A stretch of DNA of 64,000 nucleotides from Phorcus lineatus. Lineage: Eukaryota; Mollusca; Gastropoda; Trochida; Trochidae. This document shows, piece after piece, positions 1-52,366 of this stretch. The translations under genes were made by a program, and so were the position numbers. The number at the start of each line of letters is the position of its first letter. The stretch's first letter is position 1. Location of the stretch: positions 9,802,001 to 9,866,000 of the forward strand of contig OV121092.1 in assembly GCA_921293015.1 (NCBI GenBank), read 5' to 3'. The notes beneath the pieces were generated by a model. The model ran no database searches, was not told the DNA's origin, and saw nothing but the letters and a program-made list of their open reading frames with translations.

Positions 1-847
1 TGGCAATAACCTGTGGCACACCTCTATCATAGCGATTATGACTTCATATGGAGATATATCTTAATCACTGCACTTTTTCCCAAATGCAGCGTTCTTCTTC
101 TTCAGACATGATGTTTCCTAATTAAATGACTCCATGCTGTGATCTCACATGAGTCGAGACAGAATGTCTTTCATCATTCTTACGCTAGAAACACTCACAT
201 TGGTCATTGAGGCCAGGGGGTAGGGGTATTATCTTTTCGTTTAAATGTTTAAAGTTACAGAATATCTCTTTCCAAGTTCAGCGAAACTATTAACAAAAAA
301 ACGTATGTCAAAATTAAATATTACAATCGATTTCTGATTTGAAACTGTCAAATTTCTTTTCATCTTTTCAGATCAATGTCAGATGCCAGTTGATAGTATG
401 GACATGACACTGATACTTTTTGACAAATCAAAGAGTACACAAACATTATAAAATCACTATGGTCATATGACTTCCGCACCTTTTTTTTAACACATCATTT
501 ATGGTTTTCTAATTGTAAATTAACAGGGGCTCGTTTTGTTTTATTAGCGCCAAATGCGTCACCATCTATCAAAGTAAAGAGCGTCTGATGTAGGTTTCTT
601 GATGAAATGCTAGGAATAGATTGATAAATGCATGCTTTGTTTAGGAATTCTACTGCAGATATAATATTCAATGTCCTTGTATTATAAAGGGTTAGGAATG
701 GATTGGTTGTTTGTGAAATGGGCTTGGTAAGGTCAAAGTAGACTTCTTGAAGAACTTTAATACTGCCTTGCTAGTCCAAGTTAAACAGGACTTTTACATA
801 CAGACCACATGTTAGTTTTCATTATTTGTCATTTCACCATTTGAGTG

Positions 848-854
848 TGACTCA
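848..854. promoter_or_regulatory. AP-1-like TGACTCA site in spacer
   Basis: TGACTCA is the Jun/Fos-type consensus and recurs in the same position in the units I checked, about 125 bases from the CRE-like palindrome. A seven-base motif is expected by chance in this length, so it only matters in combination with the nearby CRE. Confidence 0.2.
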
Positions 855-976
855 TTAATCACTTTGGCTGTGATTGTTCAAGACTGAAGGGAAACGTGGC
901 TTTGCTAGTTTCTTTACAACCAGAGACAGACCACTGACGCAACAGAGGAAGATTTGGCACGAATGCGAAGCCAGTG

Positions 977-984
977 TGACGTCA
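977..984. promoter_or_regulatory. CRE-like palindrome TGACGTCA in spacer
   Basis: The sequence GTGACGTCAC is a perfect palindrome containing the full consensus site of CREB/ATF bZIP factors. It is present at the same place in every unit, for example 3173-3180, which is 1059 bases upstream of the copy-1 ATG. An enhancer role is inference. Confidence 0.35.
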
Positions 985-1752
985 CCTCAAATATTGCAAT
1001 TTCCTTGTTGCATATTTTTTTCTTCAACAAACCGTCTTGATTTAGTAACACTTATCATGGTCGACAAAGGCTGTATTTTAATGAGGAACGTATTTGATTT
1101 TGACTCTTTTAGCATACGCGGCACATTACTGAAGTAGTTGAAAAGTATGCAATGGCGTTGGATCCTTTTAAAGTGAAAATAGTTCTTCATGGCACTGATA
1201 TCAACAGTAGGTAAGTTTTCAAACCCGACACTGAAAGTGTGCACACCTAAAACAGTTTAGATAATGCAACATAGACTTGGAATGAAATTTCTTTTCTTAG
1301 TTTTCATTTCAGTAAATGGCGATCAAACCTGTTTCTTAGATTTATGCCAATTGTGTTATTTAGATTTGTTGGTTCATTTGGTGAAACATAATCGTGGTTG
1401 AGTAGAAAGACATCATAAGGGAGGTATTCAAAGTTCAAATTTACAGCTTGATTTCTTTTCTGAGATGATGCAAAACCACCCTTGACATGATGATTCATTT
1501 GAGTAAACCTACAGTTTTCAGCGTGAATCTTGAATTGGTCACTGGATATAGCATGTTTTTGTCTTTTCTATGATTTGGCTTTTCTCAGTTTGAGGAGCAA
1601 CTCACCTATTTTCTTCAAAGTGAGTATCAGTGATAATTCAAAACATACAAATATCTAGTTTGCAACGGTCATTTTATTCAAATAGCTGTTTGTTTGACTT
1701 TATCTTGACTGTCTGTCAGAAAAGATACAATCCGTTCTGCCGACAGGGAAAG

Positions 1753-1758
1753 TTTATT
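1753..1758 (-). terminator. AATAAA polyadenylation signal of copy 1 (same offset in every copy)
   Basis: The minus strand reads TGAAAGTGAATAAACTTTCC, so the signal begins five bases after the stop codon. This implies a very short 3' UTR ending about 15-25 bases further on. The stop codon of the overlapping +1 frame (GAA TAA) lies within this signal. The hexamer sits 6-11 bases beyond the stop in the other copies, including the truncated one at 52255-52260. Confidence 0.7.
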
Positions 1759-1969
1759 CACTTTCATCCGTGGTGACCCTTTCCTCCTTTACCCCCGTGG
1801 CCCTTTCCACCATGTCCTTTGCCTCCACCGTGACCTTTGCCTCCACCACGTCCTTTTCCTCCACCACGACCTTTTCCCCCTCCACGGCCCTTGCCTCCTC
1901 CTCCTCTTCCGCCGTGTCCAGCCATGGTAGTCCCAAATACGGCAGCAAGAACTGTAAGAGAAATTTCAT
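1754..1969 (-). other. Overlapping +1-frame ORF: signal peptide plus acidic tail (representative, copy 1)
   Basis: The ORF starts at a true ATG inside the intron, 17 nt before the acceptor, and covers exon 2 in the +1 frame. It encodes 71 residues: MKFLLQFLLPYLGLPWLDTA, a convincing signal-peptide-like segment, then 51 residues rich in Glu, Val, Ala and Lys with net charge about -11 and no Cys. The same ORF is intact in all 23 full-length copies; it gains or loses Glu codons in copies 2, 10 and 11 and has Gln-to-His in copy 13. Translation would need intron retention or a start site within the intron. G-rich Gly codons make the +1 frame open by composition alone, so the open frame is weak evidence. 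The signal-like start is the notable part. Confidence 0.25.
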
Positions 1970-2114
1970 GAGTAAGTGAAAATAAGTAAAATCGTTGAGA
2001 TATTGTTGTACAAATCAAAATGTCATATACACATCTGATAAAAGAAAATTGGACCCAAACATGTCCAATACACAAACCTGCTAAAACAAGAAGGGTGATG
2101 GTGAAAATCTGCAT
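1764..2114 (-). CDS. Copy 1: secreted Gly/Lys/His-rich basic protein, two exons
   Basis: Exon 1 codes from ATG at 2114 down to 2078. The intron is 1952-2077 (126 bp, GTTTGTG...CTTACAG, phase 1). Exon 2 runs 1951-1764 and ends GHHG-TGA. The joined protein has 74 residues. Residues 1-23 (MQIFTITLLVLAVLAAVFGT...) look like a signal peptide cleaved after TMA. The mature part of about 51 residues is built from R/H-GGG-K-G and HGGKG repeats, with 33 Gly, 8 Lys, 6 His and 4 Arg, and no acidic, aromatic or Cys residue. A TATA box lies 60-67 nt upstream of the ATG and AATAAA starts five bases after the stop, so this looks like a complete gene. I do not recognise a named family. Gly-rich basic secreted proteins include shell-matrix, adhesive and antimicrobial proteins; the sequence alone does not decide. 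If the intron is retained, frame 0 stays open (116 residues), so splicing is inferred from splice sites and signal-peptide continuity. Confidence 0.78.
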   Translation of the reverse strand: MQIFTITLLVLAGLCIGHVWVQFSFIRCVYDILICTTISQRFYLFSLTHEISLTVLAAVFGTTMAGHGGRGGGGKGRGGGKGRGGGKGRGGGKGHGGGKGHGGKGHGGKGGKGHHG

Positions 2115-2173
2115 ATTGATGTCTGTTCCTTGCTTCTGGTAGAATGCAATGAAAGAGTCGGAGTTGACTTTGT

Positions 2174-2181
2174 CTTTTATA
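2174..2181 (-). promoter_or_regulatory. TATA box of copy 1 (same offset in every copy)
   Basis: The minus strand reads CTATAAAAGAC, an excellent TATA box 60-67 nt upstream of the copy-1 ATG. Transcription should start near 2145-2150, leaving a short 5' UTR. The same TATAAAAG occurs 60-67 nt upstream of the ATG in the other copies, for example 50482-50489 for copy 23. The truncated copy 24 has none. Confidence 0.75.
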
Positions 2182-3930
2182 GAAATCTCTCAGCATGAAA
2201 GATATGGCAATAACCTGTGGCACACCTCTATCATAGCGATTATGACTTCATATGGAGATATATCTTAATCACTGCACTTTTTCCAAAATGCAGCGTTCTT
2301 CTTTTTCAGACATGATGTTTCTTAATTAAATGACTCCATGCTGTGATCTCACATGAGTCGAGACAGAATGTCTTTCATCATTCTTACGCTAGAAACACTC
2401 ACATTGGCCATTGAGGCCAGGGGGTATGGGTATTATTTTTTTGTTTAAGTGTTTAAAGTTACAGAATATTTCTTTCCAAGTGTAGCGAAACTATTAACAA
2501 AAAAACGTATGTCAAAATCAAATATTACAATCGATTTCTGATTTGAAACTGTCAAATTTCTTTTCAGATCAATGTCAGATGCCAGTTGCTAGTATGGACA
2601 TGACACTGATACTTTTTGACAAATCAAAGAGTACACAAACTTTGTAAAATCACTATGGTCATATGACTTCCGCACTTTTTTTTTAACACATCATTCATGG
2701 TTTTCTAATTGTAAATTAACAGGGGCTCGTTTTGTTTTATTAGCGCCAAATGCGTCACCATCTATCAAAGTAAAGAGCGTCTGATGTAGGTTTCTTGATG
2801 AAATGCTAGGAATAGATTGATAAATGCATGCTTTGTTTAGGAATTCTACTGCAGATATAATATTCAATGTCCTTGTATTATAAAGGGTTAGGAATGGATT
2901 GGTTGTTTGTGGAATGGGCTTGGTAAGGTCAAAGTAGACTTCTTGAAGAACTTTAATACTGCCTTGCTAGTCCAAGTTAAACAGGACTTTTACATACAGA
3001 CCACATGTTAGTTTTCATTATTTGTCATTTCACCATTTGAGTGTGACTCATTAATCACTTTGGCTGTGATTGTTCAAGACTGAAGGGAAACGTGGCTTTG
3101 CTAGTTTCTTTACAACCACAGACAGACCACTGACGCAACAGAGGAACATTTGGCACGAATGCGAAGCCAGTGTGACGTCACCTCAAATATTGCAATTTCC
3201 TTGTTGCATATTTTTTTCTTCAACAAACCGTCTTGATTTAGTAACACTTATCATGGTCGACAAAGGCTGTATTTTAATGAGGAACGTATTTGATTTTGAC
3301 TCTTTTAGCATACGCGGCACATTACTGAAGTAGTTGAAAAGTATGCAATGGCGTTGGATCCTTTTAAAGTGAAAATAGTTCTTCATGGCACTGATATCAA
3401 CAGTAGGTAAGTTTTCAAACCCGACACTGAAAGTGTGCACACCTAAAACAGTTTAGATAATGCAACATAGACTTGGAATGAAATTTCTTTTCTTAGTTTT
3501 CATTTCAGTAAATGGCGATCAAACCTGTTTCTTAGATTTATGCCAATTGTGTTATTTAGATTTGTTGGTTCATTTGGTGAAACATAATCGTGGTTGACTA
3601 GAAAGACATCATAAGGGAGGTATTCAAAGTTCAAATTTACAGCTTGATTTCTTTTCTGAGATGATGCAAAACCACCCTTGACATGATGATTCATTTGAGT
3701 AAACCTACAGTTTTCAGCGTGAATCTTGAATTGGTCACTGGATATAGCATGTTTTTGTCTTTTCTATGATTTGTCTTTTCTCAGTTTGAGGAGCAACTCA
3801 CCTATTTTCTTCAAAGTGAGTATCAGTGATAATTCAAAACATACAAATATCTAGTTTGCAACGGTCATTTTATTCAAATAGCTGTTTGTTTCACTTTATC
3901 TTGACTGTCTGACAGAAAACATTCAATCTG
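2182..3930. other. Representative 1.75-kb spacer between tandem genes
   Basis: The stretch lies between the copy-1 promoter and the copy-2 polyadenylation site, and its equivalents occur in every unit (1-1735 is the one cut by the window edge). It has no RNA gene or transposon that I recognise. It is AT-rich with several short ORFs shared between units only because the units are near-identical; many begin with TTG, GTG or CTG. It contains an AP-1-like and a CRE-like site, and weak spliced-exon-like segments on both strands. Units carry frameshifting one-base deletions here (near 29735, 34125, 36317, 38513, 40704), unlike the gene exons. Confidence 0.7.
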
Positions 3931-3960
3931 CTTTGTTGACAGGGGAAAGTTTATTCACTT

Positions 3961-4317
3961 TCATCCGTGGTGACCCTTTCCTCCTTTACCCCCGTGGCCC
4001 TTTCCACCATGTCCTTTGCCTCCACCGTGACCTTTGCCTCCACCACGTCCTTTTCCTCCACCACGACCTTTTCCCCCTCCACGGCCCTTGCCTCCTCCTC
4101 CTCCTCCTCTTCCGCCGTGTCCAGCCATGGTAGTCCCAAATACGGCAGCAAGAACTGTAAGAGAAATTTCATGAGTAAGTGAAAATGAGTAAAATCGTTG
4201 AGATATTGTTGTACAACTCAAAATGTCATATACACATCTGATAAAAGAAAATTGAACCCAAACATGTCCAATACACAAACCTGCTAAAACAAGAAGGGTG
4301 ATGGTGAAAATCTGCAT
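3961..4317 (-). CDS. Copy 2: secreted Gly/Lys/His-rich protein, two extra Gly
   Basis: Exon 1 is 4281-4317 and exon 2 is 3961-4154. This is the longest copy: the Gly run before the first Lys has two more GGA/GGC codons than the standard copy, giving 76 residues. Its 3' flank is of the second type (TTGTTGACAGGGG). Its intron carries base changes not seen in copy 1, while the coding bases otherwise match. Confidence 0.76.
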   Translation of the reverse strand: MQIFTITLLVLAGLCIGHVWVQFSFIRCVYDILSCTTISQRFYSFSLTHEISLTVLAAVFGTTMAGHGGRGGGGGGKGRGGGKGRGGGKGRGGGKGHGGGKGHGGKGHGGKGGKGHHG

Positions 4318-6170
4318 ATTGATGTCTGTTCCTTGCTTCTGGTAGACTGCAATGAAAGAGTCGGAGTTGACTTTGTCTTTTATAGAAATCTCTCAGCATG
4401 AAAGATATGGCAATAACCTGTGGCACACCTCTATCATAGCGATTATGACTTCATATGGAGATATATCTTAATCACTGCACTTTTTCCCAAATGCAGCGTT
4501 CTTCTTTTTCAGACATGATGTTTTCTAATCAAATGACTCCATGCTGTGATCTCACATGAGTCGAGACAGAATGTCTTTCATCATTCTTACGCTAGAAACA
4601 CTCACATTGGTCATTGAGGCCAGGGGGTAGGGGTATTATCTTTTCGTTTAAATGTTTAAAGTTACAGAATATCTCTTTCCAAGTTCAGCGAAACTATTAA
4701 CAAAAAAACGTATGTCAAAATTAAATATTACAATCGATTTCTGATTTGAAACTGTCAAATTTCTTTTCATCTTTTCAGATCAATGTCAGATGCCAGTTGA
4801 TAGTATGGACATGACACTGATACTTTTTGACAAATCAAAGAGTACACAAACATTATAAAATCACTATGGTCATATGACTTCCGCACCTTTTTTTTAACAC
4901 ATCATTTATGGTTTTCTAATTGTAAATTAACAGGGGCTCGTTTTGTTTTATTAGCGCCAAATGCGTCACCATCTATCAAAGTAAAGAGCGTCTGATGTAG
5001 GTTTCTTGATGAAATGCTAGGAATAGATTGATAAATGCATGCTTTGTTTAGGAATTCTACTGCAGATATAATATTCAATGTCCTTGTATTATAAAGGGTT
5101 AGGAATGGATTGGTTGTTTGTGAAATGGGCTTGGTAAGGTCAAAGTAGACTTCTTGAAGAACTTTAATACTGCCTTGCTAGTCCAAGTTAAACAGGACTT
5201 TTACATACAGACCACATGTTAGTTTTCATTATTTGTCATTTCACCATTTGAGTGTGACTCATTAACCACTTTGGCTGTGATTGTTCAAGACTGAAGGGAA
5301 ACGTGGCTTTGCTAGTTTCTTTACAACCACAGACAGACCACTGACGCAACAGAGGAACATTTGGCACGAATGCGAAGCCAGTGTGACGTCACCTCAAATA
5401 TTGCAATTTCCTTGTTGCATATTTTTTTCTTCAACAAACCGTCTTGATTTAGTAACACTTATCATGGTCGACAAAGGCTGTATTTTAATGAGGAACGTAT
5501 TTGATTTTGACTCTTTTAGCATACGCGGCACATTACTGAAGTAGTTGAAAAGTATGCAATGGCGTTGGATCCTTTTAAAGTGAAAATAGTTCTTCATGGC
5601 ACTGATATCAACAGTAGGTAAGTTTTCAAACCCGACACTGAAAGTGTGCACACCTAAAACAGTTTAGATAATGCAACATAGACTTGGAATGAAATTTCTT
5701 TTCTTAGTTTTCATTTCAGTAAATGGCGATCAAACCTGTTTCTTAGATTTATGCCAATTGTGTTATTTAGATTTCTTGGTTCATTTGGTGAAACATAATC
5801 GTGGTTGACTAGAAAGACATCATAAGGGAGGTATTCAAAGTTCAAATTTACAGCTTGATTTCTTTTCTGAGATGATGCAAAACCACCCTTGACATGATGA
5901 TTCATTTGAGTAAACCTACAGTTTTCAGCGTGAATCTTGAATTGGTCACTGGATATAGCATGTTTTTGTCTTTTCTATGATTTGGCTTTTCTCAGTTTGA
6001 GCAGCAACTCACCTATTTTCTTCAAAGTGAGTATCAGTGATAATTCAAAACATACAAATATCTAGTTTGCAACGGTCATTTTATTCAAATAGCTGTTTGT
6101 TTGACTTTATCTTGACTGTCTGTCAGAAAAGATACAATCCGTTCTGCCGACAGGGAAAGTTTATTCACTT

Positions 6171-6521
6171 TCATCCGTGGTGACCCTTTCCTCCTTTACC
6201 CCCGTGGCCCTTTCCACCATGTCCTTTGCCTCCACCGTGACCTTTGCCTCCACCACGTCCTTTTCCTCCACCACGACCTTTTCCCCCTCCACGGCCCTTG
6301 CCTCCTCCTCCTCTTCCGCCGTGTCCAGCCATGGTAGTCCCAAATACGGCAGCAAGAACTGTAAGAGAAATTTCATGAGTAAGTGAAAATAAGTAAAATC
6401 GTTGAGATATTGTTGTACAAATCAAAATGTCATATACACATCTGATAAAAGAAAATTGGACCCAAACATGTCCAATACACAAACCTGCTAAAACAAGAAG
6501 GGTGATGGTGAAAATCTGCAT
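6171..6521 (-). CDS. Copy 3: secreted Gly/Lys/His-rich protein
   Basis: Exon 1 is 6485-6521 and exon 2 is 6171-6358. The coding sequence is the standard 74-residue form. The 3' flank is of the first type (TTCTGCCGACAGGG), like copies 1 and 5, which supports a two-unit higher-order repeat on the left side of the array. Confidence 0.77.
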   Translation of the reverse strand: MQIFTITLLVLAGLCIGHVWVQFSFIRCVYDILICTTISQRFYLFSLTHEISLTVLAAVFGTTMAGHGGRGGGGKGRGGGKGRGGGKGRGGGKGHGGGKGHGGKGHGGKGGKGHHG

Positions 6522-8368
6522 ATTGATGTCTGTTCCTTGCTTCTGGTAGAATGCAATGAAAGAGTCGGAGTTGACTTTGTCTTTTATAGAAATCTCTCAG
6601 CATGAAAGATATGGCAATAACCTGTGGCACACCTCTATCATAGCGATTATGACTTCATATGGAGATATATCTTAATCACTGCACTTTTTCCAAAATGCAG
6701 CGTTCTTCTTTTTCAGACATGATGTTTCTTAATTAAATGACTCCATGCTGTGATCTCACATGAGTCGAGACAGAATGTCTTTCATCATTCTTACGCTAGA
6801 AACACTCACATTGGCCATTGAGGCCAGGGGGTATGGGTATTATTTTTTTGTTTAAGTGTTTAAAGTTACAGAATATTTCTTTCCAAGTGTAGCGAAACTA
6901 TTAACAAAAAAACGTATGTCAAAATCAAATATTACAATCGTTTTCTGATTTGAAACTGTCAAATTTCTTTTCAGATCAATGTCAGATGCCAGTTGCTAGT
7001 ATGGACATGACACTGATACTTTTTGACAAATCAAAGAGTACACAAACTTTGTAAAATCACTATGGTCATATGACTTCCGCACCTTTTTTTTTAACACATC
7101 ATTTATGGTTTTCTAATTGTAAATTAACAGGGGCTCGTTTTGTTTTATTAGCGCCAAATGCGTCACCATCTATCAAAGTAAAGAGCGTCTGATGTTGGTT
7201 TCTTGATGAAATGCTAGGAATAGATTGATAAATGCATGCTTTGTTTAGGAATTCTACTGCAGATATAATATTCAATGTCCTTGTATTATAAAGGGTTAGG
7301 AATGGATTGGTTGTTTGTGGAATGGGCTTGGTAAGGTCAAAGTAGACTTCTTGAAGAACTTTAATACTGCCTTGCTAGTCCAAGTTAAACAGGACTTTTA
7401 CATACAGACCACATGTTAGTTTTCATTATTTGTCATTTCACCATTTGAGTGTGACTCATTAATCACTTTGGCTGTGATTGTTCAAGACTGAAGGGAAACG
7501 TGGCTTTGCTAGTTTCTTTACAACCACAGACAGACCACTGACGCAACAGAGGAACATTTGGCACGAATGCGAAGCCAGTGTGACGTCACCTCAAATATTG
7601 CAATTTCCTTGTTGCATATTTTTTTCTTCAACAAACCGTCTTGATTTAGTAACACTTATCATGGTCGACAAAGGCTGTATTTTAATGAGGAACGTATTTG
7701 ATTTTGACTCTTTTAGCATACGCGGCACATTACTGAAGTAGTTGAAAAGTATGCAATGGCGTTGGATCCTTTTAAAGTGAAAATAGTTCTTCATGGCACT
7801 GATATCAACAGTAGGTAAGTTTTCAAACCCGACACTGAAAGTGTGCACACCTAAAACAGTTTAGATAATGCAACATAGACTTGGAATGAAATTTCTTTTC
7901 TTAGTTTTCATTTCAGTAAATGGCGATCAAACCTGTTTCTTAGATTTATGCCAATTGTGTTATTTAGATTTGTTGGTTCATTTGGTGAAACATAATCGTG
8001 GTTGACTAGAAAGACATCATAAGGGAGGTATTCAAAGTTCAAATTTACAGCTTGATTTCTTTTCTGAGATGATGCAAAACCACCCTTGACATGATGATTC
8101 ATTTGAGTAAACCTACAGTTTTCAGCGTGAATCTTGAATTGGTCACTGGATATAGCATGTTTTTGTCTTTTCTATGATTTGTCTTTTCTCAGTTTGAGGA
8201 GCAACTCACCTATTTTCTTCAAAGTGAGTATCAGTGATAATTCAAAACATACAAATATCTAGTTTGCAACGGTCATTTTATTCAAATAGCTGTTTGTTTC
8301 ACTTTATCTTGACTGTCTGACAGAAAACATTCAATCTGCTTTGTTGACAGGGGAAAGTTTATTCACTT

Positions 8369-8719
8369 TCATCCGTGGTGACCCTTTCCTCCTTTACCCC
8401 CGTGGCCCTTTCCACCATGTCCTTTGCCTCCACCGTGACCTTTGCCTCCACCACGTCCTTTTCCTCCACCACGACCTTTTCCCCCTCCACGGCCCTTGCC
8501 TCCTCCTCCTCTTCCGCCGTGTCCAGCCATGGTAGTCCCAAATACGGCAGCAAGAACTGTAAGAGAAATTTCATGAGTAAGTGAAAATGAGTAAAATCGT
8601 TGAGATATTGTTGTACAACTCAAAATGTCATATACACATCTGATAAAAGAAAATTGGACCCAAACATGTCCAATACACAAACCTGCTAAAACAAGAAGGG
8701 TGATGGTGAAAATCTGCAT
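8369..8719 (-). CDS. Copy 4: secreted Gly/Lys/His-rich protein
   Basis: Exon 1 is 8683-8719 and exon 2 is 8369-8556. It has the standard length. It shares the copy-2 type of 3' flank and the same intron variants, but without the two extra Gly codons, so the expansion in copy 2 is recent. Confidence 0.77.
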   Translation of the reverse strand: MQIFTITLLVLAGLCIGHVWVQFSFIRCVYDILSCTTISQRFYSFSLTHEISLTVLAAVFGTTMAGHGGRGGGGKGRGGGKGRGGGKGRGGGKGHGGGKGHGGKGHGGKGGKGHHG

Positions 8720-10571
8720 ATTGATGTCTGTTCCTTGCTTCTGGTAGACTGCAATGAAAGAGTCGGAGTTGACTTTGTCTTTTATAGAAATCTCTCAGCA
8801 TGAAAGATATGGCAATAACCTGTGGCACACCTCTATCATAGCGATTATGACTTCATATGGAGATATATCTTAATCACTGCACTTTTTCCCAAATGCAGCG
8901 TTCTTCTTTTTCAGACATGATGTTTCCTAATCAAATGACTCCATGCTGTGATCTCACATGAGTCGAGACAGAATGTCTTTCATCATTCTTACGCTAGAAA
9001 CACTCACATTGGTCATTGAGGCCAGGGGGTAGGGGTATTATCTTTTCGTTTAAATGTTTAAAGTTACAGAATATCTCTTTCCAAGTTCAGCGAAACTATT
9101 AACAAAAAAACGTATGTCAAAATTAAATATTACAATCGATTTCTGATTTGAAACTGTCAAATTTCTTTTCATCTTTTCAGATCAATGTCAGATGCCAGTT
9201 GATAGTATGGACATGACACTGATACTTTTTGACAAATCAAAGAGTACACAAACATTATAAAATCACTATGGTCATATGACTTCCGCACCTTTTTTTTAAC
9301 ACATCATTTATGGTTTTCTAATTGTAAATTAACAGGGGCTCGTTTTGTTTTATTAGCGCCAAATGCGTCACCATCTATCAAAGTAAAGAGCGTCTGATGT
9401 AGGTTTCTTGATGAAATGCTAGGAATAGATTGATAAATGCATGCTTTGTTTAGGAATTCTACTGCAGATATAATATTCAATGTCCTATTATTATAAAGGG
9501 TTAGGAATGGATTGGTTGTTTGTGGAATGGGCTTGTAAGGTCAAAGTAGACTTCTTGAAGAACTTTAATACTGCCTTGCTAGTCCAAGTTAAACAGGACT
9601 TTTACATACAGACCACATGTTAGTTTTCATTATTTGTCATTTCACCATTTGAGTGTGACTCATTAACCACTTTGGCTGTGATTGTTCAAGACTGAAGGGA
9701 AACGTGGCTTTGCTAGTTTCTTTACAACCACAGACAGACCACTGACGCAACAGAGGAACATTTGGCACGAATGCGAAGCCAGTGTGACGTCACCTCAAAT
9801 ATTGCAATTTCCTTGTTGCATATTTTTTTCTTCAACAAACCGTCTTGATTTAGTAACACTTATCATGGTCGACAAAGGCTGTATTTTAATGAGGAACGTA
9901 TTTGATTTTGACTCTTTTAGCATACGCGGCACATTACTGAAGTAGTTGAAAAGTATGCAATGGCGTTGGATCCTTTTAAAGTGAAAATAGTTCTTCATGG
10001 CACTGATATCAACAGTAGGTAAGTTTTCAAACCCGACACTGAAAGTGTGCACACCTAAAACAGTTTAGATAATGCAACATAGACTTGGAATGAAATTTCT
10101 TTTCTTAGTTTTCATTTCAGTAAATGGCGATCAAACCTGTTTCTTAGATTTATGCCAATTGTGTTATTTAGATTTGTTGGTTCATTTGGTGAAACATAAT
10201 CGTGGTTGACTAGAAAGACATCATAAGGGAGGTATTCAAAGTTCAAATTTACAGCTTGATTTCTTTTCTGAGATGATGCAAAACCACCCTTGACATGATG
10301 ATTCATTTGAGTAAACCTACAGTTTTCAGCGTGAATCTTGAATTGGTCACTGGATAAAGTATGTTTTTGTCTTTTCTATGATTTGTCTTTTCTCAGTTTG
10401 AGCAGCAACTCACCTATTTTCTTCAAAGTGAGTATCAGTGATAATTCAAAACATACAAATATCTAGTTTGCAACGGTCATTTTATTCAAATATCAGTTTG
10501 TTTGACTTTATCTTGACTGTCTGTCAGAAAAGATACAATCCGTTCTGCCGACAGGGAAAGTTTATTCACTT

Positions 10572-10922
10572 TCATCCGTGGTGACCCTTTCCTCCTTTAC
10601 CCCCGTGGCCCTTTCCACCATGTCCTTTGCCTCCACCGTGACCTTTGCCTCCACCACGTCCTTTTCCTCCACCACGACCTTTTCCCCCTCCACGGCCCTT
10701 GCCTCCTCCTCCTCTTCCGCCGTGTCCAGCCATGGTAGTCCCAAATACGGCAGCAAGAACTGTAAGAGAAATTTCATGAGTAAGTGAAAATAAGTAAAAT
10801 CGTTGAGATATTGTTGTACAAATCAAAATGTCATATACACATCTGATAAAAGAAAATTGGACCCAAACATGTCCAATACACAAACCTGCTAAAACAAGAA
10901 GGGTGATGGTGAAAATCTGCAT
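10572..10922 (-). CDS. Copy 5: secreted Gly/Lys/His-rich protein
   Basis: Exon 1 is 10886-10922 and exon 2 is 10572-10759. The coding sequence is standard. The 5' UTR has AATTCAATG in place of AATGCAATG on the plus strand, and the spacer just downstream has its own variants near 10356 and 10490. The 3' flank is of the first type. Confidence 0.77.
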   Translation of the reverse strand: MQIFTITLLVLAGLCIGHVWVQFSFIRCVYDILICTTISQRFYLFSLTHEISLTVLAAVFGTTMAGHGGRGGGGKGRGGGKGRGGGKGRGGGKGHGGGKGHGGKGHGGKGGKGHHG

Positions 10923-28127: not shown

Positions 28128-28478
28128 TCATCCGTGGTGACCCTTTCCTCCTTTACCCCCGTGGCCCTTTCCACCATGTCCTTTGCCTCCACCGTGACCT
28201 TTGCCTCCACCACGTCCTTTTCCTCCACCACGACCTTTTCCCCCTCCACGGCCCTTGCCTCCTCCTCCTCTTCCGCCGTGTCCAGCCATGGTAGTCCCAA
28301 ATACGGCAGCAAGAAATGTAAGAGAAATTTCATGAGTAAGTGAAAATAAGTAAAATCGTTGAGATATTGTTGTACAAATCAAAATGTCATATACACATCT
28401 GATAAAAGAAAATTGGACCCAAACATGTCCAATACACAAACCTGCTAAAACAAGAAGGGTGATGGTGAAAATCTGCAT
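28128..28478 (-). pseudogene. Copy 13: Gly/Lys/His-rich gene with destroyed splice acceptor
   Basis: Exon 1 is 28442-28478 and the exon 2 equivalent is 28128-28315. At 28316 the plus-strand base is A where the other full-length copies have C, so the acceptor TTACAG reads TTACAT on the minus strand. The next AG downstream is about 38 nt into exon 2, beyond the second half of the signal peptide. Normal splicing should fail. Intron retention would still give a 116-residue in-frame product. The overlapping +1 frame survives with one Gln-to-His change. All other coding bases match the functional copies, so the loss is recent. Confidence 0.7.
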
Positions 28479-41641: not shown

Positions 41642-43483
41642 ATTGATGTCTGTTCCTTGCTCCTGGTAGAATGCAATGAAAGAGTCGGAGTTGACTTTGT
41701 CTTTTATAGAAATCTCTCAGCATGAAAGATATGGCAATAACCTGTGGCACACCTCTATCATAGCGATTATGACTTCAAATGGAGATATATCTTAATCACT
41801 GCACTTTTTCCAAAATGCAGCGTTCTTCTTTTTCAGACATGATGTTTCTTAATTAAATGACTCCATGCTGTGATCTCACATGAGTCGAGACAGAATGTCT
41901 TTCATCATTCTTACGCTAGAAACACTCACATTGGTCATTGAGGCCAGGGGGTAGGGGTATTATCTTATCGTTTAAGTGTTTAAAGTTACAGAATATTTCT
42001 TTCCAAGTTCAACGAAACTATTAACAAAAAAACGTATGTCAAAATTAAATATTACAATCGATTTCTGATTTGAAACTGTCAAATTTCTTTTCAGATCAAT
42101 GTCAGATGCCAGTTGATAGTATGGACATGACACTGATACTTTTTGACAAATCAAAGAGTACACAAACTTTGTAAAATCACTATGGTCATATGACTTCCGC
42201 ACTTTTTTTAACACATCATTTATGGTTTTCTAATTGTAAATTAACAGGGGCTCGTTTTGTTTTATTAGCGCCAAATGTGTCACCATCTATCAAAGTAAAG
42301 AGCGTCTGATGTAGGTTTCTTGATGAAATGGTAGGAATAGATTGATAAATGCATGCTTTGTTTAGGAATTCTACTGCAGATATAATATTCAATATCCTTG
42401 TATTATAAAGGGTTAGGAATGGATTGGTTGTTTGTGGAATGGGCTTGGTAAGGTCAAAGTAGACTTCTTGAAGAACTTTAATACTGCCTTGCTAGTCCAA
42501 GTTAAACAGGACTTTTACATACAGACCACATGTTAGTTTTCATTATTTGTAATTTCACCATTTGAGTGTGACTCATTAATCACTTTGGCTGTGATTGTTC
42601 AAGACTGAAGGGAAACGTGGCTTTGCTAGTTTCTTTACAACCACAGACAGACCACTGACGCAGCAGAGGAACATTTGGCACGAATGCGAAGCCAGTGTGA
42701 CGTCACCTCAAATATTGCAATTTCCTTGTTGCATATTTTTTCTTCAACAAACCGTCTTGATTTAGTAACACTTATCATGGTCGACAAAGGCTGTATTTTA
42801 ATGAGGAACGTATTTGATTTTGACTCTTTTAGCATACGCGGCACATTACTGAAGTAGTTGAAAAGTATGCAATGGCGTTGGATCCTTTAAAAGTGAAAAT
42901 AGTTCTTCATGGCACTGATATCAACAGTAGGTAAGTTTTCAAACCCGACACTGAAAGTGTGCACACCTAAAACAGTTTAGATAATGCAACATAGACTTGG
43001 AATGAAATTTCTTTTCTTAGTTTTCATTTCAGTAAATGGCGATCAAACCTGTTTCTTAGATTTATGCCAATTGTGTTATTTAAATTTGTTGGTTCATTTG
43101 GTGAAACATAATCGTGGTTGAGTAGAAAGACATCATAAGGGAGGTATTCAAAGTTCAAATTTACAGCTTGATTTCTTTTCTGAGATGATGCAAAACCACC
43201 CTTGACATGTTGATTTATTTGAGTAAACCTACAGTTTTCAGCGTGAATCTTGAATTGGTCACTGGATATAGCATGTTTTTGTCTTTTCTATGATTTGGCT
43301 TTTCTCAGTTTGAGCAGCAACTCACCTATTTTCTTCAAAGTGAGTATCAGTGATAATTCAAAACATACAAATATCTAGTTTGCAACGGTCATTTTATTCA
43401 AATAGCTGTTTGTTTGACTTTATCTTGACTGTCTGTCAGAAAAGATACAATCCGCTGTGCCGACAGGGAAAGTTTATTCACTT

Positions 43484-43834
43484 TCATCCGTGGTGACCCT
43501 TTCCTCCTTTACCCCCGTGGCCCTTTCCACCATGTCCTTTGCCTCCACCGTGACCTTTGCCTCCACCACGTCCTTTTCCTCCACCACGACCTTTTCCCCC
43601 TCCACGGCCCTTGCCTCCTCCTCCTCTTCCGCCGTGTCCAGCCATGGTAGTCCCAAATACGGCAGCAAGAACTGTAAGAGAAATTTCATGAGTAAGTGAA
43701 AATAAGTAAAATCGTTGAGATATTGTTGTACAAATCAAAATGTCATATACACATCTGATAAAAGAAAATTGGACCCAAACATGTCCAATACACAAACCTG
43801 CTAAAACAAGAAGGGTGATGGTGAAAATCTGCAT
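43484..43834 (-). CDS. Copy 20: secreted Gly/Lys/His-rich protein
   Basis: Exon 1 is 43798-43834 and exon 2 is 43484-43671. The coding sequence is standard. It groups with copies 21 and 22 by spacer changes, such as CTCTCATGAGTCG near 44069. Confidence 0.77.
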   Translation of the reverse strand: MQIFTITLLVLAGLCIGHVWVQFSFIRCVYDILICTTISQRFYLFSLTHEISLTVLAAVFGTTMAGHGGRGGGGKGRGGGKGRGGGKGRGGGKGHGGGKGHGGKGHGGKGGKGHHG

Positions 43835-45678
43835 ATTGATGTCTGTTCCTTGCTTCTGGTAGAATGCAATGAAAGAGTCGGAGTTGACTTTGTCTTTTAT
43901 AGAAATCTCTCAGCATGAAAGATATGGCAATAACCTGTGGCACACCTCTATCATAGCGATTATGACTTCATATGGAGATATATCTTAATCACTGCACTTT
44001 TTCCAAAATGCAGCGTTCTTCTTTTTCAGACATGATGTTTCCTAATTAAATGACTCCATGCTGTGATCTCTCATGAGTCGAGACAGAATGTCTTTCATCA
44101 TTCTTACGCTAGAAACACTCACATTGGTCATTGAGGCCAGGGGGTAGGGGTATTATCTTTTCGTTTAAGTGTTTAAAGTTACAGAATATTTCTTTCCAAG
44201 TTTAGCGAAACTATTAACAAAAAAACGTATGCCAAAATTAAATATTACAATCGATTTCTGATTTGAAACTGTCAAATTTCTTTTCAGATCAATGTCAGAT
44301 GCCAGTTGATAGTATGGACATGACACTGATACTTTTTGACAAATCAAAGAGTACACAAACTTTGTAAAATCACTATGGTCATATGACTTCCGCACTTTTT
44401 TTTAAACACATCATTTATGGTTTTCTAATTGTAAATTAACAGGGGCTCGTTTTGTTTTATTAGCGCCAAATGTGTCACCATCTATCAAAGTAAAGAGCGT
44501 CTGATGTAGGTTTCTTGATGAAATGGTAGGAATAGATTGATAAATGAATGCTTTGTTTAGGAATTCTACTGCAGATATAATATTCAATGTCCTTGTATTA
44601 TAAAGGGTTAGGAATGGATTGGTTGTTTGTGGAATGGGCTTGGTAAGGTCAAAGTAGACTTCTTGAAGAACTTTAATACTGCCTTGCTAGTCCAAGTTAA
44701 ACAGGACTTTTACATACAGACCACATGTTAGTTTTCATTATTTGTAATTTCACCATTTGAATGTGACTCATTAATCACTTTGGCTGTGATTGTTCAAGAC
44801 TGAAGGGAAACGTGGCTTTGCTAGTTTCTTTACAACCACAGACAGACCACTGACGCAGCAGAGGAACATTTGGCACGAATGCGAAGCCAGTGTGACGTCA
44901 CCTCAAATATTGCAATTTCCTTGTTGCATATTTTTTCTTCAACAAACCGTCTTGATTTAGTAACACTTATCATGGTCGACAAAGGCTGTATTTTAATGAG
45001 GAACGTATTTGATTTTGACTCTTTTAGCATACGCGGCACATTACTGAAGTAGTTGAAAAGTATGCAATGGCGTTGGATCCTTTAAAAGTGAAAATAGTTC
45101 TTCATGGCACTGATATCAACAGTAGGTAAGTTTTCAAACCCGACACTGAAAGTGTGCACACCTAAAACAGTTTAGATAATGCAACATAGACTTGGAATGA
45201 AATTTCTTTTCTTAGTTTTCATTTCAGTAAATGGCGATCAAACCTGTTTCTTAGATTTATGCCAATTGTGTTATTTAAATTTGTTGGTTCATTTGGTGAA
45301 ACATAATCGTGGTTGAGTAGAAAGACATCATAAGGGAGGTATTCAAAGTTCAAATTTACAGCTTGATTTCTTTTCTGAGATGATGCAAAACCACCCTTGA
45401 CATGTTGATTTATTTGAGTAAACCTACAGTTTTCAGCGTGAATCTTGAATTGGTCACTGGATATAGCATGTTTTTGTCTTTTCTATGATTTGGCTTTTCT
45501 CAGTTTGAGCAGCAACTCACCTATTTTCTTCAAAGTGAGTATCAGTGATAATTCAAAACATACAAATATCTAGTTTGCAACGGTCATTTTATTCAAATAG
45601 CTGTTTGTTTGACTTTATCTTGACTGTCTGTCAGAAAAGATACAATCCGCTGTGCCGACAGGGAAAGTTTATTCACTT

Positions 45679-46029
45679 TCATCCGTGGTGACCCTTTCCT
45701 CCTTTACCCCCGTGGCCCTTTCCACCATGTCCTTTGCCTCCACCGTGACCTTTGCCTCCACCACGTCCTTTTCCTCCACCACGACCTTTTCCCCCTCCAC
45801 GGCCCTTGCCTCCTCCTCCTCTTCCGCCGTGTCCAGCCATGGTAGTCCCAAATACGGCAGCAAGAACTGTAAGAGAAATTTCATGAGTAAGTGAAAATAA
45901 GTAAAATCGTTGAGATATTGTTGTACAAATCAAAATGTCATATACACATCTGATAAAAGAAAATTGGACCCAAACATGTCCAATACACAAACCTGCTAAA
46001 ACAAGAAGGGTGATGGTGAAAATCTGCAT
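45679..46029 (-). CDS. Copy 21: secreted Gly/Lys/His-rich protein
   Basis: Exon 1 is 45993-46029 and exon 2 is 45679-45866. It is nearly identical to copy 20 at unit scale (period 2195 bp). Confidence 0.77.
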   Translation of the reverse strand: MQIFTITLLVLAGLCIGHVWVQFSFIRCVYDILICTTISQRFYLFSLTHEISLTVLAAVFGTTMAGHGGRGGGGKGRGGGKGRGGGKGRGGGKGHGGGKGHGGKGHGGKGGKGHHG

Positions 46030-47873
46030 ATTGATGTCTGTTCCTTGCTTCTGGTAGAATGCAATGAAAGAGTCGGAGTTGACTTTGTCTTTTATAGAAA
46101 TCTCTCAGCATGAAAGATATGGCAATAACCTGTGGCACACCTCTATCATAGCGATTATGACTTCATATGGAGATATATCTTAATCACTGCACTTTTTCCA
46201 AAATGCAGCGTTCTTCTTTTTCAGACATGATGTTTCCTAATTAAATGACTCCATGCTGTGATCTCTCATGAGTCGAGACAGAATGTCTTTCATCATTCTT
46301 ACGCTAGAAACACTCACATTGGCCATTGAGGCCAGGGGGTAGGGGTATTATCTTTTCGTTTAAGTGTTTAAAGTTACAGAATATTTCTTTCCAAGTTTAG
46401 CGAAACTATTAACAAAAAAACGTATGCCAAAATTAAATATTACAATCGATTTCTGATTTGAAACTGTCAAATTTCTTTTCAGATCAATGTCAGATGCCAG
46501 TTGATAGTATGGACATGACACTGATACTTTTTGACAAATCAAAGAGTACACAAACTTTGTAAAATCACTATGGTCATATGACTTCCGCACTTTTTTTTAA
46601 ACACATCATTTATGGTTTTCTAATTGTAAATTAACAGGGGCTCGTTTTGTTTTATTAGCGCCAAATGTGTCACCATCTATCAAAGTAAAGAGCGTCTGAT
46701 GTAGGTTTCTTGATGAAATGGTAGGAATAGATTGATAAATGCATGCTTTGTTTAGGAATTCTACTGCAGATATAATATTCAATGTCCTTGTATTATAAAG
46801 GGTTAGGAATGGATTGGTTGTTTGTGGAATGGGCTTGGTAAGGTCAAAGTAGACTTCTTGAAGAACTTTAATACTGCCTTGCTAGTCCAAGTTAAACAGG
46901 ACTTTTACATACAGACCACATGTTAGTTTTCATTATTTGTAATTTCACCATTTGAGTGTGACTCATTAATCACTTTGGCTGTGATTGTTCAAGACTGAAG
47001 GGAAACGTGGCTTTGCTAGTTTCTTTACAACCACAGACAGACCACTGACGCAGCAGAGGAACATTTGGCACGAATGCGAAGCCAGTGTGACGTCACCTCA
47101 AATATTGCAATTTCCTTGTTGCATATTTTTTCTTCAACAAACCGTCTTGATTTAGTAACACTTATCATGGTCGACAAAGGCTGTATTTTAATGAGGAACG
47201 TATTTGATTTTGACTCTTTTAGCATACGCGGCACATTACTGAAGTAGTTGAAAAGTATGCAATGGCGTTGGATCCTTTAAAAGTGAAAATAGTTCTTCAT
47301 GGCACTGATATCAACAGTAGGTAAGTTTTCAAACCCGACACTGAAAGTGTGCACACCTAAAACAGTTTAGATAATGCAACATAGACTTGGAATGAAATTT
47401 CTTTTCTTAGTTTTCATTTCAGTAAATGGCGATCAAACCTGTTTCTTAGATTTATGCCAATTGTGTTATTTAAATTTGTTGGTTCATTTGGTGAAACATA
47501 ATCGTGGTTGAGTAGAAAGACATCATAAGGGAGGTATTCAAAGTTCAAATTTACAGCTTGATTTCTTTTCTGAGATGATGCAAAACCACCCTTGACATGA
47601 TGATTCATTTGAGTAAACCTACAGTTTTCAGCGTGAATCTTGAATTGGTCACTGGATATAGCATGTTTTTGTCTTTTCTATGATTTGGCTTTTCTCAGTT
47701 TGAGCAGCAACTCACCTATTTTCTTCAAAGTGAGTATCAGTGATAATTCAAAACATACAAATATCTAGTTTGCAACGGTCATTTTATTCAAATAGCTGTT
47801 TGTTTGACTTTATCTTGACTGTCTGTCAGAAAAGATACAATCCGCTGTGCCGACAGGGAAAGTTTATTCACTT

Positions 47874-48224
47874 TCATCCGTGGTGACCCTTTCCTCCTTT
47901 ACCCCCGTGGCCCTTTCCACCATGTCCTTTGCCTCCACCGTGACCTTTGCCTCCACCACGTCCTTTTCCTCCACCACGACCTTTTCCCCCTCCACGGCCC
48001 TTGCCTCCTCCTCCTCTTCCGCCGTGTCCAGCCATGGTAGTCCCAAATACGGCAGCAAGAACTGTAAGAGAAATTTCATGAGTAAGTGAAAATAAGTAAA
48101 ATCGTTGAGATATTGTTGTACAAATCAAAATGTCATATACACATCTGATAAAAGAAAATTGGACCCAAACATGTCCAATACACAAACCTGCTAAAACAAG
48201 AAGGGTGATGGTGAAAATCTGCAT
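47874..48224 (-). CDS. Copy 22: secreted Gly/Lys/His-rich protein
   Basis: Exon 1 is 48188-48224 and exon 2 is 47874-48061. The gene itself is standard. Its upstream spacer contains a small private patch at about 48549-48560, where TTTCGTTTAA is replaced by TCCCCTTTTTA. This extends an unrelated antisense ORF and has no obvious role. Confidence 0.77.
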   Translation of the reverse strand: MQIFTITLLVLAGLCIGHVWVQFSFIRCVYDILICTTISQRFYLFSLTHEISLTVLAAVFGTTMAGHGGRGGGGKGRGGGKGRGGGKGRGGGKGHGGGKGHGGKGHGGKGGKGHHG

Positions 48225-50071
48225 ATTGATGTCTGTTCCTTGCTTCTGGTAGAATGCAATGAAAGAGTCGGAGTTGACTTTGTCTTTTATAGAAATCTCT
48301 CAGCATGAAAGATATGGCAATAACCTGTGGCACACCTCTATCATAGCGATTATGACTTCATATGGAGATATATCTTAATCACTGCACTTTTTCCAAAATG
48401 CAGCGTTCTTCTTTTTCAGACATGATGTTTCCTAATTAAATGACTCCATGCTGTGATCTCTCATGAGTCGAGACAGAATGTCTTTCATCATTCTTACGCT
48501 AGAAACACTCACATTGGCCATTGAGGCCAGGGGGTAGGGGTATTATCTTTCCCCTTTTTAGTGTTTAAAGTTACAGAATATTTCTTTCCAAGTTTAGCGA
48601 AACTATTAACAAAAAAACGTATGCCAAAATTAAATATTACAATCGATTTCTGATTTGAAACTGTCAAATTTCTTTTCAGATCAATGTCAGATGCCAGTTG
48701 ATAGTATGGACATGACACTGATACTTTTTGACAAATCAAAGAGTACACAAACTTTGTAAAATCACTATGGTCATATGACTTCCGCACTTTTTTTTAAACA
48801 CATCATTTATGGTTTTCTAATTGTAAATTAACAGGGGCTCGTTTTGTTTTATTAGCGCCAAATGTGTCACCATCTATCAAAGTAAAGAGCGTCTGATGTA
48901 GGTTTCTTGATGAAATGGTAGGAATAGATTGATAAATGAATGCTTTGTTTAGGAATTCTACTGCAGATATAATATTCAATGTCCTCGTATTATAAAGGGT
49001 TAGGAATGGATTGGTTGTTTGTGGAATGGGCTTGGTAAGGTCAAAGTAGACTTCTTGAAGAACTTTAATACTGCCTTGCTAGTCCAAGTTAAACAGGACT
49101 TTTACATACAGACCACATGTTAGTTTTCATTATTTGTAATTTCACCATTTGAGTGTGACTCATTAATCACTTTGGCTGTGATTGTTCAAGACTGAAGGGA
49201 AACGTGGCTTTGCTAGTTTCTTTACAACCACAGACAGACCACTGACGCAACAGAGGAACATTTGGCATGAATGCGAAGCCAGTGTGACGTCACCTCAAAT
49301 ATTGCAATTTCCTTGTTGCATATTTTTTTCTTCAACAAACCGTCTTGATTTAGTAACACTTATCATGGTCGACAAAGGCTGTATTTTAATGAGGAACGTA
49401 TTTGATTTTGACTCTTTTAGCATACGCGGCACATTACTGAAGTAGTTGAAAAGTATGCAATGGCGTTGGATCCTTTAAAAGTGAAAATAGTTCTTCATGG
49501 CACTGATATCAACAGTAGGTAAGTTTTCAAACCCGACACTGAAAGTGTGCACACCTAAAACAGTTTAGATAATGCAACATAGACTTGGAATGAAATTTCT
49601 TTTCTTAGTTTTCATTTCAGTAAATGGCGATCAAACCTGTTTCTTAGATTTATGCCAATTGTGTTATTTAGATTTGTTGGTTCATTTGGTGAAACATAAT
49701 CGTGGTTGACTAGAAAGACATCATAAGGGAGGTATTCAAAGTTCAAATTTACAGCTTGATTTCTTTTCTGAGATGATGCAAAACCACCCTTGACATGATG
49801 ATTCATTTGAGTAAACCTACAGTTTTCAGCGTGAATCTTGAATTGGTCACTGGATATAGCATGTTTTTGTCTTTTCTATGATTTGGCTTTTCTCAGTTTG
49901 AGCAGCAACTCACCTATTTTCTTCAAAGTGAGTATCAGTGATAATTCAAAACATACAAATATCTAGTTTGCAACGGTCATTTTATTCAAATAGCTGTTTG
50001 TTTGACTTTATCTTGACTGTCTGTCAGAAAAGATACAATCCGCTGTGCCGACAGTGAAAGTTTATTCACTT

Positions 50072-50422
50072 TCATCCGTGGTGACCCTTTCCTCCTTTAC
50101 CCCCGTGGCCCTTTCCACCATGTCCTTTGCCTCCACCGTGACCTTTGCCTCCACCACGTCCTTTTCCTCCACCACGACCTTTTCCCCCTCCACGGCCCTT
50201 GCCTCCTCCTCCTCTTCCGCCGTGTCCAGCCATGGTAGTCCCAAATACGGCAGCAAGAACTGTAAGAGAAATTTCATGAGTAAGTGAAAATGAGTAAAAT
50301 CGTTGAGATATTGTTGTACAAATCAAAATGTCATATACACATCTGATAAAAGAAAATTGGACCCAAACATGTCCAATACACAAACCTGCTAAAACAAGAA
50401 GGGTGATGGTGAAAATCTGCAT
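50072..50422 (-). CDS. Copy 23: last full-length Gly/Lys/His-rich gene of the array
   Basis: Exon 1 is 50386-50422 and exon 2 is 50072-50259. The coding sequence is standard, the TATA box is at 50482-50489 and AATAAA is at 50061-50066. A complete spacer lies upstream, followed by the truncated 24th copy. Confidence 0.77.
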   Translation of the reverse strand: MQIFTITLLVLAGLCIGHVWVQFSFIRCVYDILICTTISQRFYSFSLTHEISLTVLAAVFGTTMAGHGGRGGGGKGRGGGKGRGGGKGRGGGKGHGGGKGHGGKGHGGKGGKGHHG

Positions 50423-52254
50423 ATTGATGTCTGTTCCTTGCTTCTGGTAGAATGCAATGAAAGAGTCGGAGTTGACTTTGTCTTTTATAGAAATCTCTCA
50501 GCATGAAAGATATGGCAATAACCTGTGGCACACCTCTATCATAGCGATTATGACTTCATATGGAGATATATCTTAATCACTGCACTTTTTCCAAAATGCA
50601 GCGTTCTTCTTTTTCAGACATGATGTTTCCTAATTAAATGACTCCATGCTGTGATCTCTCATGAGTCGAGACAGAATGTCTTTCATCATTCTTACGCTAG
50701 AAACACTCACATTGGCCATTGAGGCCAGGGGGTAGGGGTATTATCTTTTCGTTTAAGTGTTTAAAGTTACAGAATATTTCTTTCCAAGTTTAGCGAAACT
50801 ATTAACAAAAAACGTATGTCAAAATTAAATATTACAATCGATTTCTGATTTGAAACTGTCAAATTTCTTTTCAGATCAATGTCAGATGCCAGTTGATAGT
50901 ATGGACATGACACTGATACTTTTTGACAAATCAAAGAGTACACAAACTTTGTAAAATCACTATGGTCATATGACTTCCGCACTTTTTTTTAACACATCAT
51001 TTATGGTTTTCTAATTGTAAATTAACAGGGGCTCGTTTTGTTTTATTAGCGCCAAATGTGTCACCATCTATCAAAGTAAAGAGCGTCTGATGTAGGTTTC
51101 TTGATGAAATGGTAGGAATAGATTGATAAATGCATGCTTTGTTTAGGAATTCTACTGCAGATATAATATTCAATGTCCTTGTATTATAAAGGGTTAGGAA
51201 TGGATTGGTTGCTTGTGGAATGGGCTTGGTAAGGTCAAAGTAGACTTCTTGAAGAACTTTAATACTGCCTTGCTAGTCCAAGTTAAACAGGACTTTTACA
51301 TACAGACCACATGTTAGTTTTCATTATTTGTCATTTCACCATTTGAGTGTGACTCATTAATCACTTTGGCTGTGATTGTTCAAGACTGAAGGGAAACGTG
51401 GCTTTGCTAGTTTCTTTACAACCACAGACAGACCACTGACGCAACAGAGGAACATTTGGCATGAATGCGAAGCCAGTGTGACGTCACCTCAAATATTGCA
51501 ATTTCCTTGTTGCATATTTTTTTCTTCAACAAACCGTCTTTATTTAGTAACACTTATCATGGTCGACAAAGGCTGTATTTTAATGAGGAACGTATTTGAT
51601 TTTGACTCTTTTAGCATACGCGGCACATTACTGAAGTAGTTGAAGAGTATGCAATGGCTTTGGATCCTTTTAAAGTGAAAATAGTTCTTCATGGCACTGA
51701 TATCAACAGTAGGTAAGTTTTCAAACCCGACACTGAAAGTGTGCACACCTAAAACAGTTTAGATAATGCAACATAGACTTGGAATGAAATTTCTTTTCTT
51801 AGTTTTCATTTCAGTAAATGGCGATCAAACCTGTTTCTTAGATTTATGCCAATTGTGTTATTTAGATTTGTTGGTTCATTTGGTGAAACATAATCGTGGT
51901 TGACTAGAAAGACATCATAAGGGAGGTATTCAAAGTTCAAATTTACAGCTTGATTTCTTTTCTGAGATGATGCAAAACCACCCTTGACATGATGATTCAT
52001 TTGAGTAAACCTACAGTTTTCAGCGTGAATCTTGAATTGGTCACTGGATATAGCATGTTTTTGTCTTTTCTATGATTTGGCTTTTCTCAGTTTGAGCAGC
52101 AACTCACCTATTTTCTTCAAAGTGAGTATCAGTGATAATTCAAAACATACAAATATCTAGTTTGCAACGGTCATTTTATTCAAATAGCTGTTTGTTTGAC
52201 TTTATCTTGACTGTCTGTCAGAAAAGATACAATCCGCTGTGCCGACAGGGAAAG

Positions 52255-52366
52255 TTTATTCACTTTCATCCGTGGTGACCCTTTCCTCCTTTACCCCCGT
52301 GGCCCTTTCCACCATATCCTTTGCCTCCACCGTGACCTTTGCCTCCACCACGTCCTTTTCCTCCAC
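52255..52366 (-). pseudogene. Copy 24: truncated 3' end of the Gly/Lys/His-rich gene
   Basis: Only the last 101 nt of coding sequence (52266-52366, through TGA) and the AATAAA (52255-52260) remain. Exon 1, the intron, the signal peptide and the promoter are missing because the sequence switches to a 48-bp minisatellite. Upstream of the junction the gene's own frame meets TAA within nine bases, so this remnant cannot make the original protein. It carries one His-to-Tyr change (CAT to TAT), the only coding substitution I see among the 24 copies, as expected for a copy free of constraint. Confidence 0.88.

Follow-up and report, generated by a model that had tools for sequence, protein, structure and literature searches.

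Why should one tiny gene be repeated, nearly unchanged, at least 23 times in a row? We examined this question in a 64,000-nucleotide stretch of Phorcus lineatus DNA (contig OV121092.1, positions 9,802,001 to 9,866,000 of the forward strand; "the window" below), the first 52 kb of which is a tandem array of 2.2-kb units, each carrying a two-exon gene for a putative secreted peptide made of glycine, lysine, histidine and arginine. The explanation that we favor, with a probability of about one half, is a gene-dosage array for the bulk secretion of a disordered polycation, as an adhesive, mucus or matrix component. The features of the array and of its leftmost complete gene copy are as follows.

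1..52366, minus strand: tandem array of 23 complete units (2191-2204 bp each) and one 5'-truncated fragment, open at the left edge
50573..52366, minus strand: right-end partial unit (24th copy), cut within exon 2, with 99/188 exon-2 positions retained
2174..2181, minus strand: TATAAAAG (TATA box), leftmost complete copy, starting 67 nt upstream of the ATG
2078..2114, minus strand: coding part of exon 1, leftmost copy, 37 nt, first part of the putative signal peptide
1952..2077, minus strand: intron, leftmost copy, 126 nt, GT-AG
1764..1951, minus strand: coding part of exon 2 with stop, leftmost copy, 188 nt, end of the signal peptide and the mature peptide of G, K, H and R only
1753..1758, minus strand: AATAAA polyadenylation signal, leftmost copy, 5 nt past the stop, identical in 23/23 copies
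28316, minus strand: altered splice acceptor (AG to AT) of copy U13, whose ATG is at 28478

The 23 complete gene copies all lie head to tail on the minus strand, with their ATG at plus coordinates 2114, 4317 and so on to 50422, and with a copy-to-copy spacing of 2191-2204 bp. Pairwise identity of the units was 98.2-99.9% over 2.2 kb, and repetition of 23 units averaging 98.95% identity exceeds chance; the window contains no Ns. The first ~60 bases match the region upstream of the next unit, and since base 1 thus falls inside repeated sequence, the array extends leftward past the window, in full agreement with the initial annotation, made from the letters alone, which had described at least 23 copies over more than 52 kb running off the left edge. 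The 24th copy ends at 52364-52366 and is without promoter, exon 1 and intron; its 99 retained exon-2 positions include one coding substitution, CAT to TAT, changing His to Tyr.

The pattern of relatedness among units was observed directly. The nearest relative of a unit was found at lag 2 for 11/23 units, at lag 1 for eight, at lag 3 for three and at lag 4 for one. Units two apart were 99.34% identical on average, and adjacent units 99.12%. When the order of the units was shuffled 10,000 times, the lag-2 mean was matched by none of the shuffles, the lag-1 mean by 50, and the difference between the two by 44. At the left end two unit types alternate, many variants being confined to U02, U04 and U06 and others to U01, U03 and U05. 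Unequal exchange in two-unit steps would leave such a pattern, and the two-unit periodicity lends some support to the rapid copy-number evolution that had been offered as one meaning of the amplification.

Gene anatomy and the predicted peptide

Judged by their motifs, the 2.2-kb units have the appearance of complete RNA polymerase II genes, each with a very short 3' end. TATA box, both exons, intron and AATAAA lie within every one, which bears out the earlier view that whole transcription units are repeated and not exons alone. The element TATAAAAG stands within an identical 15-nt context in 23/23 copies; with AATAAA equally constant, the claim that each copy has its own promoter and polyadenylation signal held as far as the two motifs, which are what is seen of either. 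With a transcription start ~31 nt past the first base of the TATA box, the leader would be ~36 nt long. The coding part of exon 2 ranges from 185 to 194 nt among the 23 copies, and the 126-nt intron keeps GT-AG in 22/23; in U13 the coding sequence is still identical to that of the other copies despite the altered acceptor, and the AT in place of AG makes its 74-aa product conditional. The splice joining 2078 to 1951, as first proposed, matches the predicted exon boundaries of the leftmost copy.

The precursor is 74 aa long in 20/23 copies, 73 aa in two and 76 aa in one, and these variants differ solely in the size of one Gly run. Residues 1-23 are hydrophobic (Kyte-Doolittle up to 3.27 over 11 residues) and are followed by an abrupt polar change; the putative signal peptide that they form is split by the intron, with 12 of its ~23 residues in exon 1 and the remainder in exon 2. 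Cleavage sites of signal peptides follow the -3/-1 rule, and the mature part is defined here by a cut after Ala23, placed by hand via this rule without a predictor. The resulting 51-aa peptide contains 33 G (64.7%), 8 K, 6 H and 4 R and no other residue, so Cys, Tyr, Phe, Asp and RGD are all absent, and its calculated charge is +12.3 at pH 7 and +17.5 at pH 5. These values reproduce the ~65% Gly, the Lys, His and Arg remainder and the charge of about +12 given in the initial annotation. Within the peptide a hexapeptide, GGGKG(R/H), is repeated five times, and the C-terminal end reads GHHG. A 51-residue chain with no hydrophobic, aromatic or acidic residue should be unstructured.

Signs of coding constraint and a second, nearly invariant block

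Variability was counted as substitutions in the 23 complete copies, with gaps and the 24th fragment left out; 121/2204 positions were variable. Coding positions were variable at 0/225 (exon 2 at 0/188), as against 9/126 in the intron (Fisher P 8e-5), 9/150 upstream, and, for all non-coding positions together, 6.1 per 100. The length variants (+6 bp in one copy, -3 bp in two) stay in frame. The GGGKG(R/H) repeats within the gene were compared with one another, and the ten pairs, which are not independent, gave 0/6/32 differences at codon positions 1/2/3. Of the six columns at each of these positions, 0/1/6 were variable, and the one at position 2 is the Arg/His switch. This third-position bias supports the Gly-rich frame and does not hinge on whether the array is young. 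The promoterless right-end fragment has a coding substitution and the 23 complete copies have none, which in this one case points to coding constraint. In 22/23 copies the exon-1 frame continues open through the intron, but the intron varies like the rest of the unit and 7/9 of its variants would change an amino acid if read; we therefore do not read it as coding. Coding of the gene is supported, and the small secreted-type Gly/Lys/His/Arg protein first proposed for the locus now comes with signs of constraint.

A second feature of the unit was found in the course of these counts.

5579..5896 (unit positions 776-1093), no strand assigned: second nearly invariant block, shown in unit U03 and repeated in every complete unit

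This 318-bp block was variable at 3/318 positions, compared with 118/1661 in the remaining non-coding part (Fisher P 1.3e-6, a value that is too small because the block was picked after the data had been viewed). The unit has its longest invariant run, of 204 bp, around exon 2 and the next, of 191 bp, in the block; when the variable positions were permuted 20,000 times, longest and second-longest runs such as these occurred at frequencies of 0.00045 and 0.00005. Folding of the block was no better than that of shuffled sequence on either strand (z +1.27 and +1.13). Rfam gave no match at gathering scores over the whole window, and a mir-2355 match in one unit (19.9 bits against a gathering score of 80, E 0.75) was taken as chance; no tRNA was found with bacterial settings. 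Its variants lend support to none of the ORFs within it. The block may represent a cis-element, a small gene or an effect of conversion.

Unit U03 holds nine ATG-to-stop open reading frames (ORFs) of at least 40 aa, six on the minus and three on the plus strand, counting ORFs inside the unit, leaving out those across the unit border, and using unit positions. One of them, minus 151-501, is the gene itself with the intron translated as well. Rejected as conserved genes were minus 1075-1278 (stop in four copies), minus 767-961 (ATG lost in two), minus 1902-2024 (stop in three), minus 69-242 (stop in one; nine changing variants and no silent one) and plus 123-245 (stops in two). Two further ORFs share sequence with the coding exon but are read in different frames: minus 296-511 (71 aa) and plus 286-453 (55 aa), each with a single change. 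Plus 864-1001 (45 aa) lies in the 318-bp block and has a hydrophobic start, with two changing and no silent variants; it lacks support as a gene, though it may still be one. Pfam gave no match for a hypothetical spliced ORF on the plus strand, whose exon variants, placed by hand, looked amino-acid-changing.

Explanations for the array, and its right flank

Under the dosage explanation, units would multiply and stay alike through unequal exchange and conversion, and if the units are kept alike, all copies would deliver one product. Outside the cell the unstructured polycation would act as a bulk material. There it would bind and condense acidic partners (mucins, acidic proteins, sulphated polysaccharide or mineral surfaces) as part of a secreted adhesive, mucus or matrix, and its His residues would adjust the charge between an acidic granule and the outside. 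A strongly cationic, unstructured chain together with a dosage array makes bulk polyelectrolyte secretion the simplest account. Secretion, expression, the dosage role and disorder are what we infer in this account, and the polyelectrolyte role of the peptide is its least supported part. On this account the copy number may serve demand for the product, the other meaning that the initial annotation had offered. For sandcastle-worm glue, coacervation of polycations with polyanions in granules that acidify is discussed (PMC4275877); expression demand has been proposed for clustered spider silk genes (PMC9779670), and the arrays of antifreeze-protein genes are a further precedent (PMC13032017).

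Several points weigh against this explanation. Its glycine-rich cationic composition fits antimicrobial peptides equally well. The putative signal peptide has no basic N-region. The invariance of the coding sequence could in part be homogenisation, because the 318-bp block is nearly as invariant. Two ORFs in other frames across the coding exon share its invariance, and the Gly-rich frame is told apart from them solely by the codon-position differences among the internal repeats. A link between the array and its acidic neighbor, described below, is speculation from adjacency.

The main rival, unlikely and yet the foremost of the alternatives, is that the peptide is antimicrobial, of the glycine-rich cationic class, and that its gene was amplified to keep defence at a constantly high level, for instance in blood cells, skin mucus or egg fluid. 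The peptide resembles known ones of this class in size, Gly content and charge (PMC5031766), and the GGG-led hexapeptide GGGKG(R/H), present five times, may be compared with the repeats of armadillidin. The mature part, however, contains neither Phe nor any other hydrophobic or aromatic residue, which makes membrane damage of the armadillidin type harder to see. Many immune families diversify their copies, whereas the copies here do not, one sequence being found in 20/23.

It is doubtful, though conceivable, that the unit represents a ribosomal DNA (rDNA)-like autonomous expression module for a four-letter polycation, carrying its own second constrained element in the 318-bp block. The block might then serve as an enhancer or insulator keeping every copy active, or as an opposite-strand minigene, and the peptide would add a minimal natural polyelectrolyte to those known, one built from G, K, H and R only and condensing with acidic secreted partners.

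That the product is a metal-binding or other ligand-binding secreted peptide appears improbable. Six of the 51 residues are His and the chain ends in GHHG, and a signal cut shifted by one residue towards the start would leave Ala-Gly-His, a Cu/Ni-binding motif, at the N-terminus; but Lys and Arg outnumber His 2:1, and the cleavage site is uncertain. An assembly artefact, with the copy number inflated from one or few real units, is about as improbable. Tandem arrays are difficult to assemble, the right junction falls inside an exon, and for one antifreeze array the assembly paths were 64 copies apart (PMC13032017); against this, 121 variable positions give the units signatures of their own, and related units are placed non-randomly, tending to stand two apart, a pattern that argues against simple assembly stutter. 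Least probable of all, by a narrow margin, is a satellite with a dead or fortuitous reading frame and no product of consequence, for although the U13 acceptor is altered, the right-end copy truncated and the second block also nearly invariant, the coding part is variable at 0/225 positions against 6.1 per 100 elsewhere, the internal repeats differ mainly silently, and TATA, intron signals and AATAAA are properly placed in 22 to 23 of 23 copies.

To return to the dosage explanation, the near-identical copies look, on the evidence of their letters, like a route to very large amounts of one cationic product. To our knowledge, few protein-coding arrays other than those of histone and antifreeze genes reach this uniformity, with at least 23 copies of a whole 2.2-kb unit that are 98-100% alike. 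The peptide is nearly a designed polymer: it has four residue types, none of them hydrophobic, repeats a hexapeptide and changes its charge with pH. Should it prove to be a component of glue, mucus or matrix, it could provide a minimal template for wet adhesives or coacervates; should it prove antimicrobial, it would be an unusual member of its class, without hydrophobic residues.

To the right of the array lie a further tandem repeat and the nearest gene-like sequence.

52365..52790, no strand assigned: 48-bp tandem repeat, 8.9 copies, adjoining the array end with a 2-bp overlap (AC) at 52365-52366
56748-58002, plus strand: putative two-exon start of a secreted, very acidic protein, with a hydrophobic start and then pI 4.05

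The plus strand of the 48-bp repeat is open as a mucin-like 16-residue repeat, THLLPDMTTASPAPDD, and the minus strand is open too. A match of the minus-strand reading to PF07639 (YTV; 23.3 bits, cut-off 21) was taken as repeat-driven (25 of the 27 families listed); for the other unit and flank ORFs, all Pfam matches listed except PF07639 fell below their cut-offs. In the acidic ORF (exon ~57544-58002), the 136-aa part after the hydrophobic start has a pI of 4.05 and a charge of -22; it had no Pfam match, and no relatives were confirmed in viral contigs. Starting inside the end of this exon, a 132-bp sequence is repeated 1.9 times (57985-58232). Farther right, at 61883-62009, there is an imperfect palindrome (a 128-column reverse-strand self-match of 75% identity), possibly a small mobile element. 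A blastn search of the right flank for diverged copies of the unit found none better than E 0.26.

Comparison with known systems

The precursor matched no Pfam family at E up to 5 and no NCBIfam family at E up to 1, low-complexity proteins being badly covered by such profiles. Five weak matches in PDB (best E 0.084, none of them an antifreeze protein) were rejected as low complexity, and the product still has no place among the named families, as the initial annotation had stated. In viral contigs and in prokaryote genomes, a search with one exact piece of the unit each found nothing. The peptide strings tried did not occur in the 5.39 million papers searched, and literature searches yielded no paper that could be matched to the gene; the peptide may well be annotated in its own species, or have relatives. 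Gly-rich secreted proteins are a known kind, as are small genes for secreted proteins in tandem arrays; what is notable here is the uniformity, the copy number and the four-letter composition.

The SpTransformer (Sp185/333) genes of sea urchins are, as here, small two-exon genes in tight clusters (PMC5491942). Their leader lies in exon 1, and exon 2 encodes a mature part with Gly-rich and His-rich regions and repeats (PMC5491942), whereas the putative signal peptide here is split over both exons. The peptide contains no RGD or Asp and no separate His-rich region, and in place of mosaic diversity there is one sequence in 20/23 copies. The KRMP shell matrix proteins combine a lysine-rich region with a Gly/Tyr-rich region (PMC4498902), and the mature part here is without Tyr.

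Silk-like structural proteins, including the molluscan shematrins, have a signal peptide and Gly-rich repeats; the precursor here has Gly-rich repeats and a putative signal peptide. Shematrins are of Gly/Tyr character; the peptide here has no Tyr and is only 51 aa long, and it is encoded by at least 23 nearly identical copies as against few paralogues. The Gly rule of SilkSlider is at least 25% Gly in 80 residues, or alternatively 35% in 28 (PMC4944945); since 51 aa are too short for the 80-residue window the 28-residue setting applies, and the peptide, by its composition as calculated outside the program, exceeds it with 64.7% over 51 aa.

Glycine-rich antimicrobial peptides (armadillidin, acanthoscurrin, ctenidin, holotricin 3, tenecin 3 and the shepherins) are very Gly-rich, often cationic and of low complexity (PMC5031766), and the peptide here is likewise a Gly-rich, linear, cationic one (33/51 Gly, no Cys, +12.3 at pH 7), differing from them in its lack of any hydrophobic or aromatic residue. 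Armadillidin H has 53 aa, 47.2% Gly, a charge of +7 and a sixfold GGGF(H/N)(R/S); holotricin 3 has 64.1% Gly and the acanthoscurrins ~72% (PMC5031766). The repeat here, GGGKG(R/H), has no Phe and is not that of armadillidin. In isopods one armadillidin sequence was reported per transcriptome, with one species excepted (PMC7017220).

A parallel in layout is with the type III antifreeze protein (AFP III) arrays of Zoarcoidei, polar fishes, which are tandem, high-copy arrays of small protein genes, and for which selection for high-copy haplotypes in the cold has been proposed (PMC13032017). AFP III is a folded, crystallised protein (PMC13032017), unlike the presumably unstructured peptide here, and no sequence relation to it was found in the PDB search. 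As in the antifreeze arrays, the array in the window is built of complete, nearly identical gene units set head to tail, the form expected of a concerted array.

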